Source: an uncultured Lachnospiraceae bacterium (GTDB lineage: Bacteria > Bacillota > Clostridia > Lachnospirales > Lachnospiraceae). From it: a DNA stretch of 48,554 nucleotides. Below, in pieces: positions 3,945 through 12,058 of the stretch. The number at the start of each line of letters is the position of its first letter. Position 1 is the first letter of the stretch. A program made the translations under genes and the position numbers. Below the pieces are notes generated by a model. The model made no database searches. It saw only the letters and a list, made by a program, of their open reading frames with translations, and was not told the origin of the DNA. The stretch covers positions 1 through 48,554 of the forward strand of contig CAMVTN010000004.1 of the NCBI GenBank assembly GCA_947170415.1, read 5' to 3'.

Positions 3945-5936
3945 TTACTTTGTATTTGATTTTTTGGCTGTTTTTTTCTTTGCTGTTTTGGTTTTGGCAG
4001 CGGTCTTTTTAGGTGCTTTGACGTCGCTGCCTGTTGTTTTTACTTTGTAGATCTGAGTGAGCTTTTTAGGCTTGCTCTCGGTATCCTTAAAGGAAGATAT
4101 AAGCCATGCAAAACCGTAACTTGAAAGTGCTACTGCGGAAGCATTTCTCTCTTCTCCGGTCATCATGTCATAGTAACGCTCGGATTCATTGATCCATGCG
4201 GTTTCATCAGAGTCAGAGAAATTGAAAAGAGCGATCATTTTCTGACCCTTATAGAAACGTCCGATGCCGAGGATGTGGTCATTATAAGCTTCCACGAGCC
4301 AGGTATCAGCTTCGCTGTTAAATACATCAAAGGCTTTACGCAGCTTTACGAGCTTCTGTATGCCGGCATAGATACGGCCTTCGCGGGTCTCAGGCTTTTT
4401 ACGATTTACAGCAGCTTTCCAGTCAAAGGCACCTCTGTGCAGGAACCTGGAATCATCCCATTTAAGAGGATCTGTATGGTAACTGTAATCATTTAACTGA
4501 CCGATCTCATCACCGGAATAGATGATGGGGATACCGCTCTGGGTAAGAAGGAATGCGTGGAGCATGAGATCCAGACGGATACCACGGTCTACTTTCCAGT
4601 CTGTAAGCTCATATTCTCCGGCTTCGATTCCGCAGAGAGAAGCGGTAGTTCCGCAAAGACGGGCATCCTTTAAGCGAGGATCATCGTTGTAGAGCTCACC
4701 GCGGCCGTCAGTGCCGTAGATCTTTCCGCTAAGCGTATCGTTAAGGAACTTTTTATGTTCAGCTTCGACGATTCCGTACTGCTTTAAGAAGTCATAGTCC
4801 AGTCCCCATCCGATGTCATCGTGGCAGCGGAGATAGTTCAGGAAAGTGTACTGCTTTGGAAGTGCGAAAACTCCTGCAAGCTGGTGCTTCATGAGGCGTA
4901 CATCGCCGGTTGCAACTGTATGCCAGGTACTTGCCATTGTTGTAACGTTATAGAGCATCTGGCACTCTGGTCTGTCAACTGTACCGAAGTATGGAACGAC
5001 TTTTGACGGTTCCATTACGACTTCTCCAAGGAGGAGAGTTCCGGGGCAGACTACATCGCATGCCATGTGCATGATACGTACAAGAGTATGTACCTGAGGC
5101 AGATTACGGCAGTTGGTTCCGAGAGTTTTCCAGATGTAAGGTGTCGCATCCAGACGTATGATATCCACACCGTGATTGCAGAGATTCAGCATATTCGCGG
5201 TCATATCATTAAATACTGTCGGATTATGGTAGTTCAGATCCCACTGATACGGACAGCAAGTAGTCATGACTACCTTGTGGGCTTCTTCGCACCAGGAGAA
5301 GTTGCCGGGAGCTGTCTGAGGAAATACCTGAGGAACAGTCTTTTCAAGATCGTTCGGTATGTTCCAGTTATCAAAGAAGAGGTATCTGTCCTGATATTCC
5401 TTTTCTCCGGCTTTTGCCCTTCTCGCCCACTCGTGATCCTCACTGGTATGATTCATTACAAAATCAAGGCAGATGCTGATACCCATGGAATGACATCTGT
5501 CAGAAAGTGCGGACAGGTCCTCCATTGTTCCAAGTTTTGGATCGATCCTTCTGAAATCAGAGACAGCATATCCACCATCGCTTTTTCCTTCGGTAGTCTG
5601 TAAAAGAGGCATGAGGTGAAGATAGTTGGCGCCGCACTGCTTAATGTAATTTAAGTGCTTATTTACTCCGTTTAATGTCTCGCCAAAGCAGTTTACGTAC
5701 ATCTGCATGCCGAGCATATCGTTTCCGGAGTACCATCTTGGATCGGCCTCCCTCTTCCGGTCAAGTTCCTTCAGCGACTCTTTACGAGCAGCATAGTATT
5801 CGTGAAGCATGAAAACAAAGTACTCAAATGCCTGCTGATCGTTTCCGTACAGTTCGGCATAGAGCCATTTGATCTCGTCGTAGCACTGTTCAAGTCGTTT
5901 CCTGAATTCCGGTTCAAAGCTGTCAAAATTTACCAT
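3945..5936 (-). CDS. GH13 subfamily 4 amylosucrase-type enzyme with lysine-rich C-terminal tail
   Basis: With the start at 5936 (AAAGGG site, 8 bases before ATG) the protein is 663 residues; the track ORF from 6125 runs into the regulator gene upstream and has no ribosome site. An N-terminal helical domain is followed by a GH13 barrel with GGYAVSDFR, DFVMNHT, DIIRLDA (nucleophile Asp), LLLGEV (acid/base Glu) and RCHDDIGW (third catalytic Asp). Together with PYQWDLN these match GH13_4: amylosucrase or sucrose hydrolase, which transfers glucose from sucrose to alpha-glucan or to water. Which of these it does cannot be decided here. The last about 35 residues are Lys/Ala/Thr-rich and are not a family feature. 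No signal peptide is seen, so it is cytoplasmic. Its upstream region carries a cre-like box and an inverted repeat, indicating sugar control. Confidence 0.88.
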   Translation of the reverse strand: MVNFDSFEPEFRKRLEQCYDEIKWLYAELYGNDQQAFEYFVFMLHEYYAARKESLKELDRKREADPRWYSGNDMLGMQMYVNCFGETLNGVNKHLNYIKQCGANYLHLMPLLQTTEGKSDGGYAVSDFRRIDPKLGTMEDLSALSDRCHSMGISICLDFVMNHTSEDHEWARRAKAGEKEYQDRYLFFDNWNIPNDLEKTVPQVFPQTAPGNFSWCEEAHKVVMTTCCPYQWDLNYHNPTVFNDMTANMLNLCNHGVDIIRLDATPYIWKTLGTNCRNLPQVHTLVRIMHMACDVVCPGTLLLGEVVMEPSKVVPYFGTVDRPECQMLYNVTTMASTWHTVATGDVRLMKHQLAGVFALPKQYTFLNYLRCHDDIGWGLDYDFLKQYGIVEAEHKKFLNDTLSGKIYGTDGRGELYNDDPRLKDARLCGTTASLCGIEAGEYELTDWKVDRGIRLDLMLHAFLLTQSGIPIIYSGDEIGQLNDYSYHTDPLKWDDSRFLHRGAFDWKAAVNRKKPETREGRIYAGIQKLVKLRKAFDVFNSEADTWLVEAYNDHILGIGRFYKGQKMIALFNFSDSDETAWINESERYYDMMTGEERNASAVALSSYGFAWLISSFKDTESKPKKLTQIYKVKTTGSDVKAPKKTAAKTKTAKKKTAKKSNTK

Positions 5937-5968: not shown

Positions 5969-6010
5969 GCGTCAAAAGAAATACTACCCTCGAAAGCGTA
6001 CTTTTGACGC
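5969..6010. promoter_or_regulatory. 10-bp perfect inverted repeat enclosing a GGGTAGT motif, amylosucrase leader
   Basis: GCGTCAAAAG at 5969-5978 is repeated inverted at 6001-6010. The 22-bp interior contains ACTACCC (GGGTAGT on the gene's strand, 5983-5989) and GAAAGCGT (5992-5999). The GGGTAGT matches the element at the ACP promoter, and GAAAGCGT recurs in the cre-like box upstream. It may be a regulator-binding site or an RNA hairpin in the leader. Confidence 0.5.
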
Positions 6011-6020
6011 TCATATGTAT

Positions 6021-6087: not shown

Positions 6088-8466
6088 TTATATAAGCCCA
6101 AGGTTCCGCGCGGCGAGCACAGCATCTGTTTTTCCGGCGACGTTCAGTTTTTTGTAGTTCATTTTGGCGTGATATCTTACGGTCTCGAGCTTCATATGTT
6201 CGTGATCTGCGATCTGCTGCATGGTGAGTCCTTCTGCCTGGAGACGGAGGACTGCGATGGCATGCTCTGAGAAATTAAGTAGACCGGTATTTTGCGGTTT
6301 CAGATAGAGCGGGTAGTGTATCGCCATTTCTTCTGTCTCGAGATAAACCTGTCGAAACCAGTCAGGGTCGATTCCTTCTGTACGGACAGCTTCCTCTCTG
6401 ATGGCTTTCAGCAAAGGGTAGATCGCTATTCCTTCACGGGATATCATCCGTGTGAAACGGTAGGAGCATATTTCTTTCAGACCGGAAAGGAGCTGTTCGG
6501 CATAGTTTTTGCTTCCGCTTCTGTACTGGACAATGGAGCGAAGGAGGCTTAGTTCCATAAGAATATAGTGACGTTCATATTTTTCGGCGTAGTAATAGAG
6601 TTTATCGATCAGGGAGCGCGCTGCCGTAAGCTCGTCTGACGCAAGATAGGCACGTATTTTTGTAAGGTATCGGTAGCGTTCCATTATGAAAAACTCTTTG
6701 TTTTCGTTCGGCGCTTTTTTGAGCCATCGGTTTATAGCAGTCTGATTACCGTCGTACATGGCGATACGTATCTTTAAGGATCGCACATTTGGTAAAAGAG
6801 ACGGTTCATTCTGATCTACGCAGCGAGTCTCAAAACCGTCGATAAGGTCTGATGCAGCTTTCAGATCTCCGTTTGACAGATGGATACGGCACATGATCCC
6901 AATGGCGGAGAAAACTGATTCCATTACCCCGCCGTGCTCTGCGTCCAGGAGTCCCTGATTTAAGAGAGGGAGTGTAAGCCTGCTTTCTTCACCTTTTTCA
7001 TAATAACTTTCGCCGAGAGATATAGAAGCTATCCCTTTACCGTACCGACCGAGAACCTCCTGCAGCAGATTACCGGATTTCTTAAATATCTCTGTGTCGG
7101 AACGGCTCCACTCGCAAAAGTCCTTTCCGGAGTTCATTACGGATGGCATGTTACTCGTAATGGAAAACTCAGGGAGATGGATACCGTAGTCCAGCATGTA
7201 GGATGGGATTTTTGCGAGGATCTTTGCTGTACTTGATGAACCGCGGTGCGGAAGCGATATATCGAGGTACAGGATCCGACCGTAGGCTTCTCTTTTCCTT
7301 ATACCGAGTGCTTTATCTGCATAGCTTTGCAGCTGACCGTACCAGTACTCACTGTTTTCAGGCTCCATGATCATGGAATACATCATACTCATGCCGGACA
7401 TCATTATGGGATCGCCCATGATCTCACTTTTCGGGAGCTTCAGATAATATTTCCTGAGATCGTAGTAATAGCTGTTACTTGGATTACGGCGGGAATTTCG
7501 CACCAATAGTTCATGTATACGTCCTATCTTTCCGCTTTTTTCATATAGCTTCAGTGCATGTGGGATATCGTCATGCAGTTCGTAATAGAGCCCGGCGTTA
7601 TAGGCGTAGTCGCTCATATTTATGGATCCAAAGGATTCTTCGGCCTTTTTTCTGAGAAATTTAAGTACCAGAGGACGTATCTTATAGCGGTCGCCCTTTT
7701 GAATGATAAAGTTTCCTGTTTCAAAGGCTTCGTTAAGGATCTGGGATACATAGGGGTTTCCTGTGACAAATTCCGCTGTTTCACGGTCAAATTCGTCAAC
7801 TACGCTTATCTGGAGCATGAAATCAAGGAGAGAACGCGGCCAGTCCGGCATGATGACAAATTCGAGATAGCGGTCATAGATTTTTCTGACAGACTGATAG
7901 ATCTTTTCTGTAAGGCGGCCTCCATCCGGAAGCTGGTGAGCTATCCCGTTTAGGAAATAGACATTGCCCTGTGTTACGACGGAGAGTTTATTCAGCATGT
8001 CATCTGATGCTGTGATGTCATACGTTGAAAGAAATTCACGGGTTTTGGCAGTATCAAATTGAAGAAGTTCTTCCTCTACTGTTTCAAATGAACGTTCCAT
8101 GTAAATATGGCTGAACCAGCTTAGTTCCCGGCTTCTGGAGATCAGTATGAGCCAGATATCGTCACGCATTGCAAGTTTTATGACTCGCTCTTTATTATCG
8201 GGAGTGTACATCATCTGCAAGTCATCTATCACAACGTTTATCCGGCGTTTTCCTGTTTGTTTTTCGGGGATCACTGACAGATCCGGATCGGAATTTTTGC
8301 AGGAAAAATAGAGATATTTCCTGCTTCCGAAAAACTGGCGTACCAGTTCTGTTTTTCCAAATCCAGCAAAGCCGTAAATGTATACCGGAGTTCCCATGGT
8401 CCCGGCGCGCTTCAATATCTGAAAGGCTTCGGTAGGACAGATGTAGTTTGATGCGGTTTTATTCAT
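6088..8466 (-). CDS. LAL-type (MalT-like) LuxR family transcriptional regulator with N-terminal ATPase
   Basis: The chosen start at 8466 has a perfect AAGGGG site six bases upstream; the track start at 8517 does not. The 792-residue protein has a P-loop (GFAGFGKTE, about residues 31-39) and a Walker B (VVIDDLQ, about 75) of the STAND/MalT class. A long alpha-helical repeat region (about 300-700) follows, then a LuxR HTH at the C-terminus (LTMQQIADHEHMKLETVRYHAKMNYKKL). Such LAL regulators are signal-gated activators that oligomerise when bound to ATP and inducer, binding short directly repeated boxes near the -35. It is divergent from the ACP/ligase/condensation operon and upstream of, in line with, the amylosucrase gene. 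Both carry a shared GGGTAGT motif, so both are candidate targets. The inducer is unknown. Confidence 0.9.
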   Translation of the reverse strand: MNKTASNYICPTEAFQILKRAGTMGTPVYIYGFAGFGKTELVRQFFGSRKYLYFSCKNSDPDLSVIPEKQTGKRRINVVIDDLQMMYTPDNKERVIKLAMRDDIWLILISRSRELSWFSHIYMERSFETVEEELLQFDTAKTREFLSTYDITASDDMLNKLSVVTQGNVYFLNGIAHQLPDGGRLTEKIYQSVRKIYDRYLEFVIMPDWPRSLLDFMLQISVVDEFDRETAEFVTGNPYVSQILNEAFETGNFIIQKGDRYKIRPLVLKFLRKKAEESFGSINMSDYAYNAGLYYELHDDIPHALKLYEKSGKIGRIHELLVRNSRRNPSNSYYYDLRKYYLKLPKSEIMGDPIMMSGMSMMYSMIMEPENSEYWYGQLQSYADKALGIRKREAYGRILYLDISLPHRGSSSTAKILAKIPSYMLDYGIHLPEFSITSNMPSVMNSGKDFCEWSRSDTEIFKKSGNLLQEVLGRYGKGIASISLGESYYEKGEESRLTLPLLNQGLLDAEHGGVMESVFSAIGIMCRIHLSNGDLKAASDLIDGFETRCVDQNEPSLLPNVRSLKIRIAMYDGNQTAINRWLKKAPNENKEFFIMERYRYLTKIRAYLASDELTAARSLIDKLYYYAEKYERHYILMELSLLRSIVQYRSGSKNYAEQLLSGLKEICSYRFTRMISREGIAIYPLLKAIREEAVRTEGIDPDWFRQVYLETEEMAIHYPLYLKPQNTGLLNFSEHAIAVLRLQAEGLTMQQIADHEHMKLETVRYHAKMNYKKLNVAGKTDAVLAARNLGLI

Positions 8467-8536
8467 ATTTATCCCCTTGATGATCGGATTTGTATCTTTT
8501 TCCCTTGGGATCATCATACCATCCTGTTATCTGACA

Positions 8537-8628
8537 GGGTAGGATTTGTTAAAAAACTTTTGCATACAATCGAAAAAAGACTGAAAAACTACCCGAGAGG
8601 GTAGTGTGATGAAAAATAAAAATATGAT
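8537..8628 (+). promoter_or_regulatory. Activator-type promoter region of the ACP operon with GGGTAGT boxes
   Basis: GGGTAGG lies at 8537-8543. An 18-bp palindrome, ACTACCC-GAGA-GGGTAGT, lies at 8588-8605. The -10-like TATGAT (8623-8628) is 17 bp after the last box, so the box occupies the -35 position, where no consensus -35 is present. The first and last boxes are 62 bp apart, about six helical turns. This is the layout expected for an activator-dependent promoter, probably used by the adjacent LAL regulator (inference). Confidence 0.55.
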
Positions 8629-8699
8629 AAAACCTTAGGCAAACAAAAAACGTCGGTTTAAAGCGACACAGCATACGGGCAACCGGGGAGGAGTATAAA

Positions 8700-8951
8700 A
8701 TGGCTGACATTAAAATTTTTAACGAGATCCGTGACATTCTTCTTAACTACGCAGAGGTAGAGCCGGAAGAGATCAATCGTGAAACAGACCTTATCGAAGA
8801 CCTGGGGATGGATTCCTTTAGCTTTATATCCATGCTCGGAGATGTGGAGGAGACTTTTTCCATTTCAATCTCTGAAGAGGATATGGAAGAAGCTACACAC
8901 ATGATCACACCGGGTGACATCATCAGATTTGTAGAAAAGAAAGTTGCCTGA
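8700..8951 (+). CDS. Acyl carrier protein (phosphopantetheine-binding)
   Basis: This is an 83-residue acidic four-helix protein with the DLGMDSF motif. Ser39 is the expected 4'-phosphopantetheine attachment site, followed by FISMLGDVEETF as in ACP helix II. Length and charge are those of free-standing ACPs. GGGGAGGAG precedes the ATG by about seven bases. It is the first gene of a three-gene operon with an acyl ligase and a condensation-domain protein, and no fatty-acid synthesis genes are nearby. It is therefore more likely a dedicated carrier for this pathway than the housekeeping AcpP (inference). No phosphopantetheinyl transferase is in the window. Confidence 0.92.
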   Translation: MADIKIFNEIRDILLNYAEVEPEEINRETDLIEDLGMDSFSFISMLGDVEETFSISISEEDMEEATHMITPGDIIRFVEKKVA

Positions 8952-8989: not shown

Positions 8990-10579
8990 ATGAAGATTCA
9001 GGAAAAGATCGACAGGGGAATCAAGGATTTCCGGACATTTCTAAATGCGCTCGCAGATAAATATGCTGATACGCCTGCTGTAAGAGAAATGCACGGAAAA
9101 GATATCGTGGATCGGACTTATAACCAGTTAAAGCGGGACGCAGATGCTGTAAGCAGATTCTTTTTGGCACAGGGAAATACGGAGCCTATGCATGTGGCTG
9201 CTATAGGCGCAACAAGTTACCAGTACATCGCTGCTTATTACGGTACCGTAAATACAGCAAATGTGATCGTTCCTACGGAGGCTCAGCTTTCAACGGAGAG
9301 CCAGTGCGATCTTTTCCATATGGCAGATGTTAACGGGCTTTTCTTTGATAGGCACTTAGAGGACAGAATACCGGAAATACATGAGAAATGCCCGGATATA
9401 CGACTTTTTATCTGCCTGACGGAAGATGTCGAGGCGCATGACCTTGGAGACATCCATATCTACAGTCTGTCGGAGATAGAAAAGGAATATGCAGTGGGTG
9501 ATGATATCACTGTTCCGCTTGAGCATGACACTATGAGCACCATCCTTTTTACATCAGGAACGACCAGTGCTCAGCCAAAGGCAGTTATGCTGTCTCACGG
9601 CGGCATAATCGACAATATTTTTTCCGGTGAGCTTGCAGAACGTGACTCGACGAACTATGTAAAGCTTATTGCACTGCCGATCCACCATGCGCTGAGCTTT
9701 AACACAGATATCGGAATGGGCTTCAGAAATGGCGATACGGTATTTGTAAATGATTCTATGCTGCATATCGCCAGGAACTTTAAGATCGCAAAGCCATATA
9801 CGGCAATCCTTGTTCCGATGGTATTTGAAAACTTCTACCATAAGATCATGAAGGCTCATGAAATGCATCCGGAGATGGACTTAAAGACCATGGCCCGGGA
9901 GGCATTTGGCGGAGAAATAGAAGTATTTTACTGCGGCGGTGCTCACCTTAGAGCAGAGATCGCGGATGCTTTTGAGTCATGGGGTATGCCGGTATTTGAA
10001 GGATATGGCATGACTGAGTGCTCTCCGAGAGTGGCAGCAAATATGCCGGGACGTTTCCGCAGAGATTCTATCGGTAAAGTCGTGGATAATGCGGAAGTGC
10101 GTATAAAGGATTCTGAACTTCAGGTAAAGAGTCCTTCGGTAATGCTTGGATATTATAAAAATCCGGAGGCTACAAAGGCCGCTTTTACAGAAGACGGATG
10201 GCTTAGGAGCGGAGATATAGGCTACATTGATGAAGACGGATATATCTTTCTTCAGGGAAGGATAAAGAACCTCATCATCTTAAGTAACGGTGAAAATGTC
10301 AGTCCGGAGGAGATCGAAACAAAACTGTATGACTGCACATTCATAAAGGAGTGTCTTGTATATGAGGAAGATGGAAAGATCACAGCAGAAATATTCCCGG
10401 ACACTGAATACGCTGAAATGCATGAGGTTTCGGACGTTGAGAAAGAAATTTCTGCAGCAGTTAAAGCAGCAAACAAGACTATGCCCACAACAAAGTCAGT
10501 TAGAAATGTGAAGTTTAGATACGAACCTTTTGAGAGAACAGCTACAAACAAGATCAAGAGAGCACGTAAAGCAGCGTGA
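8990..10579 (+). CDS. AMP-forming acyl/aminoacyl ligase (ANL superfamily)
   Basis: The ATG at 8990 follows GGAGGAG; the track's GTG at 8963 lies before that site and is rejected. The 529-residue protein has the complete ANL motif series: the P-loop TSGTTSAQPK (about residues 188-197), GYGMTECSPR (A5), RSGDIGYIDEDGY (A7), GRIKNLIILSNGENVSPEE (A8) and the C-terminal lysine in ATNKIKRA (Lys521). It should adenylate a carboxylic acid and load it on a thiol, and the adjacent ACP is the natural partner. The sequence looks nearer to long-chain fatty acyl-ACP/CoA ligases than to amino-acid adenylation domains, but the substrate cannot be assigned by eye. Confidence 0.9.
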   Translation: MKIQEKIDRGIKDFRTFLNALADKYADTPAVREMHGKDIVDRTYNQLKRDADAVSRFFLAQGNTEPMHVAAIGATSYQYIAAYYGTVNTANVIVPTEAQLSTESQCDLFHMADVNGLFFDRHLEDRIPEIHEKCPDIRLFICLTEDVEAHDLGDIHIYSLSEIEKEYAVGDDITVPLEHDTMSTILFTSGTTSAQPKAVMLSHGGIIDNIFSGELAERDSTNYVKLIALPIHHALSFNTDIGMGFRNGDTVFVNDSMLHIARNFKIAKPYTAILVPMVFENFYHKIMKAHEMHPEMDLKTMAREAFGGEIEVFYCGGAHLRAEIADAFESWGMPVFEGYGMTECSPRVAANMPGRFRRDSIGKVVDNAEVRIKDSELQVKSPSVMLGYYKNPEATKAAFTEDGWLRSGDIGYIDEDGYIFLQGRIKNLIILSNGENVSPEEIETKLYDCTFIKECLVYEEDGKITAEIFPDTEYAEMHEVSDVEKEISAAVKAANKTMPTTKSVRNVKFRYEPFERTATNKIKRARKAA

Positions 10580-10606: not shown

Positions 10607-12058
10607 ATGAAAGAACGTGAAATAAACGGAGTTAAGGTAAAGACCTGGCCTTTGACAGATGTGCAGGGCGGCTTATATAAGGTATTTGCCCATTATGCAA
10701 GTATTCAGGAAATGAATCTGGGTGTGGGATTCTATTTCAAGATGGACATGGATGAGGAACTCATGCGCCAGTCTATGCGCGAAGCCATAGAGTATATGGA
10801 GGCTCTGAATGTTCGTTTTGGTCAGGATGAAAATGGAGAAATGTACCAGTATATAAATCCTGAGCCGTGGAATGAAGAGATGCCTCTTTTGGATCTTTCG
10901 GATATGTCGGAAGAAAGCGCGAAGAAGTATCTCACTGATGTAACATCCGAACCGATTGATTATCTGCACAAAAATATGACCATTGTAAGGCTTGTGCGCC
11001 TGTGTGATGGGTATAGCGGTGTTTATATCAATTTCAACCATATGCTGGCAGACGGCTATTCCATAAATATGTTTATGACATATCTCGCTGCTATCTATTT
11101 TTCACATGTTTCAGGGAAAACGCTTCTTCTTCCTAAAAAGAGCGATTATGTAAAAATGATCGAAAAGGAGCTTTTATATAATGGTTCTGACAGAGAGAAG
11201 GCAGATCAGGAGTTTTGGAACAGTACACTTAGAGAGGGTGAACCGCTCTATACACATCCGACTGTAAGACCCGGAAATGCGTGGGAAAAACAGCAGGAAG
11301 AGCAGGGTGAGAATAAGACAAGATATCTTATCAATAATATCAGTCCTAAGGCTTCTATTGATTCTGAAATCATCGGTGGAGAGAGAGCTGAGAGACTGGT
11401 GGACAGCATCGCAGAAAACAAGGTGTCTGAAAATGCGCTTGCAACACTGGCACTTCGGAGTACTCTTTCGCTCTTAAATCACAGACAGACTGATATCGCA
11501 GCTCGTGTAATAGTGAACCGCCGCGGTACTATCAATGAACGTTATTCCGGCGGAAACCGGATGACATTCCTTACCTGGAGAAGCGATATACAGGACAACA
11601 TGCCTGTACGTGAGGCACTACAGGAAATGCTCGACAGTCAGAAAAAGATATTCCGTCATGCGGATTATAACTCTATGAAACGTCTGGCAGAGAGAGGGCA
11701 GTTCTTTGGAAATCCGCCAAAGGCAACCTATGAATCGGTTACATTTACCTATCAGCCGAATACAGTTCAGATAGATCCGAGACTTCCGGAGATGAAGGCA
11801 GTATGGTATTCAAACAGCAGTACATCAAATATATGCTATCTGACACTCGAACACCTCCTTGGAAAGAAGGATTACGTGTTTATTTATGAGCGTCGTGTAG
11901 AGGAAATGAATGAGGAAGAAATGCATTTCTTTACTGAACTTATGATGGAATGTATGGAAAGTGCTATGGCTCATCTCGACGGAACAGTAGGAGAGGTGCT
12001 TGATGAAGTACAGGCGCGTCATCCGGAATTAAGTCCTGAACCTGCATTCAGTGTGTGA
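10607..12058 (+). CDS. Stand-alone condensation-domain acyltransferase
   Basis: This is a 483-residue protein of the CoA-dependent acyltransferase / NRPS condensation fold. The core motif is NHMLADG (residues 144-150): the catalytic second His (145) and the structural Asp-Gly are kept, while the first His of HHxxxDG is Asn. This is seen in some free condensation and alcohol-acyltransferase-like members. It contains no adenylation, carrier or thioesterase domain. It starts 28 bp after the ligase (AGAGGAG site) and ends at a terminator, so the operon is ACP, ligase, condensation enzyme. The logical reading is transfer of an ACP-bound acyl group to a soluble or lipid amine or alcohol acceptor. 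The acceptor is not identifiable. Confidence 0.85.
   Translation: MKEREINGVKVKTWPLTDVQGGLYKVFAHYASIQEMNLGVGFYFKMDMDEELMRQSMREAIEYMEALNVRFGQDENGEMYQYINPEPWNEEMPLLDLSDMSEESAKKYLTDVTSEPIDYLHKNMTIVRLVRLCDGYSGVYINFNHMLADGYSINMFMTYLAAIYFSHVSGKTLLLPKKSDYVKMIEKELLYNGSDREKADQEFWNSTLREGEPLYTHPTVRPGNAWEKQQEEQGENKTRYLINNISPKASIDSEIIGGERAERLVDSIAENKVSENALATLALRSTLSLLNHRQTDIAARVIVNRRGTINERYSGGNRMTFLTWRSDIQDNMPVREALQEMLDSQKKIFRHADYNSMKRLAERGQFFGNPPKATYESVTFTYQPNTVQIDPRLPEMKAVWYSNSSTSNICYLTLEHLLGKKDYVFIYERRVEEMNEEEMHFFTELMMECMESAMAHLDGTVGEVLDEVQARHPELSPEPAFSV

Follow-up and report, generated by a model that had tools for sequence, protein, structure and literature searches.

A conserved palindrome beside a LAL regulator gene in Lachnospiraceae, a probable operator for the divergent acyl carrier protein operon

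The 48,554-nucleotide stretch of Lachnospiraceae DNA analysed here (the window) carries a gene for a LAL regulator that lies divergent to an operon for an acyl carrier protein (ACP), an acyl-AMP ligase and a condensation-domain protein, and the region between them holds the palindrome ACTACCC-GAGA-GGGTAGT (Table 1). Which protein reads this palindrome, and which genes would it control? The original prediction held that GGGTAGT-type boxes link the LAL regulator to two targets, the ACP promoter and the amylosucrase gene on its other side, and all of its boxes are indeed there: the palindrome, GGGTAGG at 8537-8543, and GGGTAGT in the amylosucrase leader. Our analysis, which works from sequence comparison, indicates with good confidence that the palindrome is the operator of the divergent LAL regulator, whose helix-turn-helix (HTH) dimer would bind it and activate the ACP operon, and that the pair belongs to a LAL/operator family found across the Lachnospiraceae.

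Table 1. Coordinates of the genes and candidate regulatory features in the window
Feature	Position	Strand	Basis
Amylosucrase (GH13), neighbour of LAL	3945..5936	-	genuine amylosucrase by sequence
Single GGGTAGT in amylosucrase leader, judged outside the operator system	5983..5989	-	clade alignment
LAL regulator, TPR_MalT region and C-terminal GerE/LuxR HTH	6088..8466	-	domain matches
CAGGGTAG half-site, between LAL gene and palindrome	8535..8542	+	kept in 4/4 clade members although KH1P17 flanks differ
Palindrome ACTACCC-GAGA-GGGTAGT, 18 bp, candidate operator	8588..8605	+	unique in genome, clade conservation, de novo motif ranking
Candidate -10 TATGAT, 17 nt past palindrome	8623..8628	+	TATGTT at same place in KH1P17
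Alternative -10-like TAAAAC, 22 nt past palindrome	8628..8633	+	spacing of LAL relatives; TAGAAC in KH1P17
ACP, first gene of putative target operon	8700..8951	+	domain evidence
AMP-forming acyl ligase (fatty-acyl-CoA/AMP ligase-like)	8990..10579	+	domain evidence
Stand-alone condensation-domain protein	10607..12058	+	domain evidence

LAL regulators have been called a poorly studied family (PMC3282765). The longest open reading frame of the present one, 809 residues, begins at 8517, and the likely start, with a ribosome-binding site, is at 8466. The frame matches GerE (PF00196, residues 749-802, E 1.5e-7) and TPR_MalT (PF17874, residues 521-708, E 3e-15), and its N-terminal GFAGFGKTEL and VVIDDL resemble Walker A and B motifs, a putative assignment, with no Pfam ATPase match in the protein. 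The match to the NCBIfam MalT equivalog NF003420 is partial, and its 70.7 bits fall below the curated cut-off of 537. The nearest solved relatives of the HTH domain are ComA and VraR.

Taken singly, GGGTAGT heptamers occur four times in the window, once inside the LAL coding sequence (6311), against 2.74 +/- 1.55 in shuffled sequences, which is not significant. The full palindrome ACTACCC-N4-GGGTAGT is present as a single copy in a genome-wide pattern search of the window's genome, and of the 48 genus genomes searched, four contain CTACCC-N4-GGGTAG, with one copy each, every copy between LAL and ACP. The clade comprises the window genome and three other Lachnospiraceae genomes: NK4A144 (L013), a 99% relative of the window; MC2017 (L014); and KH1P17 (L015), whose LAL is 78% identical to that of the window. 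All three share the gene order LAL / ACP, ligase, condensation protein. In an alignment of the intergenic regions the palindrome is unbroken in each of the four members, and its spacer alone varies (GAGA, or GAGC in KH1P17); much of the KH1P17 flank has diverged around a perfect palindrome. LAL orthologues of at least 78% identity are found in exactly the four palindrome-bearing genomes, and the remaining genomes of the genus have either no LAL relative or only ones of 29-31% identity or weaker partial ones. When both half-sites were searched with any spacer letters, no further copy with one or two mismatches was found in the four clade genomes, and at three mismatches the pattern read backwards as a control far outnumbered the real one; additional operator copies in the clade were rejected on these two grounds.

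We next gathered more distant LAL homologues (24-43% identity), both from species of the genus outside the clade and from further Lachnospiraceae genera. With the window clade excluded, these gave 42 upstream regions, mostly one per genus. So that no motif was chosen by eye, every seven-base half-site (16,384 in all) was scored at spacers of 2-6. ACTACCC-N4 ranked first of the 16,384 over the five spacers, with 11 of 42 loci (the mean over half-sites being 0.095); ACTATCC came second (10 loci), and none of its other 209 letter permutations exceeded two. All 33 tabulated sites, drawn from 28 of the 42 loci, have a TANNNT -10 past the palindrome, which starts at 22 nt in 29 of them and at 23 nt in 4; the next best offset gathers five sites. 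The 33 sites were tabulated by hand from the scan outputs, and the table omits L124, L130, L147 and a distant L131 site, of which L124 also obeys the 22-nt rule. No recognised palindrome was found upstream of the LAL homologue at 14 of the 42 loci. The spacers of these relatives vary (TTTT, GTTT, ATAG and others) and the right halves are often imperfect (GGAGAGT), yet the spacing to the -10 stays constant. Because the same site recurs, at a fixed promoter distance, beside most of the distant LAL relatives, the palindrome in the window is very probably the LAL regulator's own docking site; the window itself shows the arrangement that defines the family, an [ACTA or AGTA]NCC-N4 palindrome beside a LAL gene.

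Across 397 family genomes, the composite ACTANCC-N4-GGNTAGT-N20-24-TANNAT occurs in 12, nine of which belong to the 57 LAL-positive genomes (Fisher p = 2e-6); the other three have no LAL at the cut-off used, and a reversed-pattern control gave three hits. The AGTA version is present in three genomes, all LAL-positive, with two control hits. Several composite-motif sites lie on other contigs, before LytTR-type regulators, a signalling protein or a surface protein. At L165, in a genome with no LAL detected, ACTACCC-N4-GGGTAGT and a -10 stand ahead of a gene for a NarL-type response regulator. Genes for BspA-type leucine-rich repeat surface proteins are frequent neighbours of LAL relatives, and downstream of the distant LAL homologues at L118, L119, L123, L133 and L135 lie BspA-type or other leucine-rich repeat, Ig-like surface proteins.

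One LAL clade carries AGTANCC-N4-GGGTACT in place of the ACTA-type site, and the change is matched in the recognition helix. The position aligned with Tyr782 (window numbering) is Lys in six of six AGTA-type LALs and Tyr or Phe in 26 of 26 ACTA-type LALs. A single change suffices to place this difference on the tree, so the match fits a specificity switch and does not amount to independent replication. Members of the AGTA clade have further copies of the palindrome before neighbouring genes (L086 at 11182 and 13060; L087 at 11114), including one for a clostripain-family (C11) protease in L086, which suggests small local regulons.

The promoter of the ACP operon is less regular in the window clade. 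No sigma70-consensus promoter was found in 8440-8720 at the scan threshold. If GGTAGT at 8600-8605 is taken as a non-consensus -35, TATGAT lies 17 nt downstream. At 22 nt the clade has TAAAAC or TAGAAC, which lack the final T, and at 17 nt it has TATGAT or TATGTT, so the -10 may lie at either distance and the geometry may depart from that of the family. The half-site CAGGGTAG near the LAL start is a possible second LAL contact for autoregulation; on the LAL side it could not be read as a complete operator spaced at 22 nt.

We favour a mechanism in which a dimer of the C-terminal LuxR/GerE domain would bind both ACTACCC half-sites, which lie immediately ahead of the -35 region or overlap it. 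Bound there, the LAL regulator would activate a promoter with no consensus -35 and so would switch on the ACP / acyl-AMP-ligase / condensation-domain operon; elsewhere in the Lachnospiraceae the regulator of each such pair would usually adjoin its own operator. We prefer activation because, in most relatives, about 34 nt separate the end of the palindrome from the expected start site downstream and the -35 hexamers inspected are poor; repression is the main rival. The LAL regulator might instead block RNA polymerase at the -35 region of the ACP operon, and perhaps of its own gene, as the overlap of the palindrome with the -35 position (if TATGAT at 17 nt is the -10) and the conserved CAGGGTAG near the LAL promoter would allow. 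Against this, in the relatives 22-23 nt lie between the end of the site and the -10, the twelve -35 hexamers inspected there show no TTGACA consensus, the window locus yielded no sigma70-type promoter, and similarly placed MalT sites in Actinoplanes activate (PMC7567727); we regard repression as unlikely, though a reading to be taken seriously. Very little probability attaches to another regulator binding the palindrome with LAL as a mere neighbour. In genome G153, which has no LAL at the cut-off, the motif does precede the gene of a NarL-type response regulator whose recognition helix is similar, but the motif adjoins LALs in many genera with differing neighbours and its variants match the variants of the LAL recognition helix. 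The least probable of the readings weighed here makes the palindrome an RNA hairpin, such as a terminator or leader element, rather than a DNA operator. A 7-bp stem with a GAGA tetraloop folds well (-11.7 kcal/mol, z -3.8) and a T run follows on the minus strand; however, the predicted promoters place the palindrome upstream of the start site, the loop letters change both in KH1P17 and among the relatives, and the imperfect right halves of the latter leave the -10 distance unaltered.

The idea that GGGTAGT boxes at both promoters let one regulator couple sucrose/alpha-glucan metabolism with the acyl-conjugation operon now seems highly improbable to us. The box does exist, and LAL and amylosucrase adjoin in all four clade members. 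In the four-member alignment, however, the box is a half-site common only to the window and NK4A144: MC2017 lacks the ~20-nt segment that holds it and has GTCAAAAGTACTTTTGAC there instead, and the KH1P17 leader has neither. In NK4A144 an insertion separates the box from the start codon, and a second site within two mismatches is absent from all four clade genomes. Of the 48 genus genomes, 27 have amylosucrase itself, and 23 of these are palindrome-free. On the leader alignment and this gene distribution we reject amylosucrase as a second LAL target, the link being unsupported. The original prediction thus stands for the LAL/ACP promoter, where all four clade members keep the palindrome and distant LALs repeat its motif at a fixed promoter spacing, and falls for the amylosucrase leader; the same division is seen when the sites are judged by conservation and background frequency. 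The amylosucrase leader (5972-6017) contains an inverted repeat, GCGTCAAAAG...CTTTTGACGC, which takes the form of the compact palindrome GTCAAAAGTACTTTTGAC in MC2017 (L014 ~6470) and is possibly the site of another regulator. An insertion in NK4A144 (L013 ~8545-8690, in the LAL-amylosucrase intergenic region) has terminal inverted repeats GTTACAGTTCA / TGAACTGTAAC and resembles a small mobile element.

The LAL site shares features with several known systems. ComA binds TTGCGG-N4-CCGCAA, likewise an inverted repeat with an N4 spacer; ComA, VraR and NarL are short response regulators with receiver domains, whereas the LAL is a protein of ~800 residues with a different half-site. E. coli and Klebsiella MalT share the LAL architecture (TPR_MalT region and GerE HTH) and have sites near the -35, but they use repeated boxes with a GGA(T/G)GA core (PMC7567727), of the type GGGGA(T/G)GAGG, where the window has one palindrome and a LAL far under the MalT equivalog cut-off, with the maltose pathway not involved. 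The original prediction had likened the boxes to such asymmetric MalT boxes; the symmetry of ACTACCC-N4-GGGTAGT excludes this, and a two-fold symmetric 7-4-7 site has more in common with dimer sites of the NarL/ComA type and with the palindromes reported for MalT in Actinoplanes (PMC7567727). In Actinoplanes sp. SE50/110, MalT is an activator at palindromic TCATCC-N5-GGATGA sites that overlap the -35 region, the 3' end of the motif lying 34.4 +/- 1.0 nt from the start site (PMC7567727), and a 22-nt gap to the -10 implies about 34 nt for the Lachnospiraceae sites. The differences are a 7-4-7 rather than a 6-5-6 layout, another half-site, a single site in place of many within one large region, and unrelated target genes. 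With the search terms used, we found no earlier description of the present operator in the open-access literature.

The condensation protein is present in 53 of 397 family genomes, and many Lachnospiraceae have a distant version of the cassette. Cassettes of other genera (L053-L072) have the gene order condensation-ACP-ligase, and two proteins checked upstream of such cassettes are SCP2-like and alpha/beta-hydrolase. As BLAST detected no LAL near the 20 cassettes examined in these genera, LAL control would be peculiar to the window clade. It seems somewhat more probable than otherwise that the Lachnospiraceae hold a large LAL family, each member of which reads a palindrome [A][C/G]TANCC-N4-GGNTA[G/C]T placed 22-23 nt ahead of the -10; that a single helix change from Tyr/Phe to Lys accompanies the shift from ACTA to AGTA; and that the window clade has placed a three-gene acyl-conjugation operon under such a LAL, with a single operator, where many relatives adjoin BspA-type leucine-rich surface proteins. 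A recognisable operator with fixed promoter spacing would make LAL targets predictable from sequence throughout a major family of gut and rumen bacteria. The ACTA and AGTA LALs would form a natural pair of specificity variants, with which base recognition may be assigned to individual helix residues, and the regulation of an ACP/ligase/condensation cassette that is widespread and uncharacterised becomes testable at one locus.
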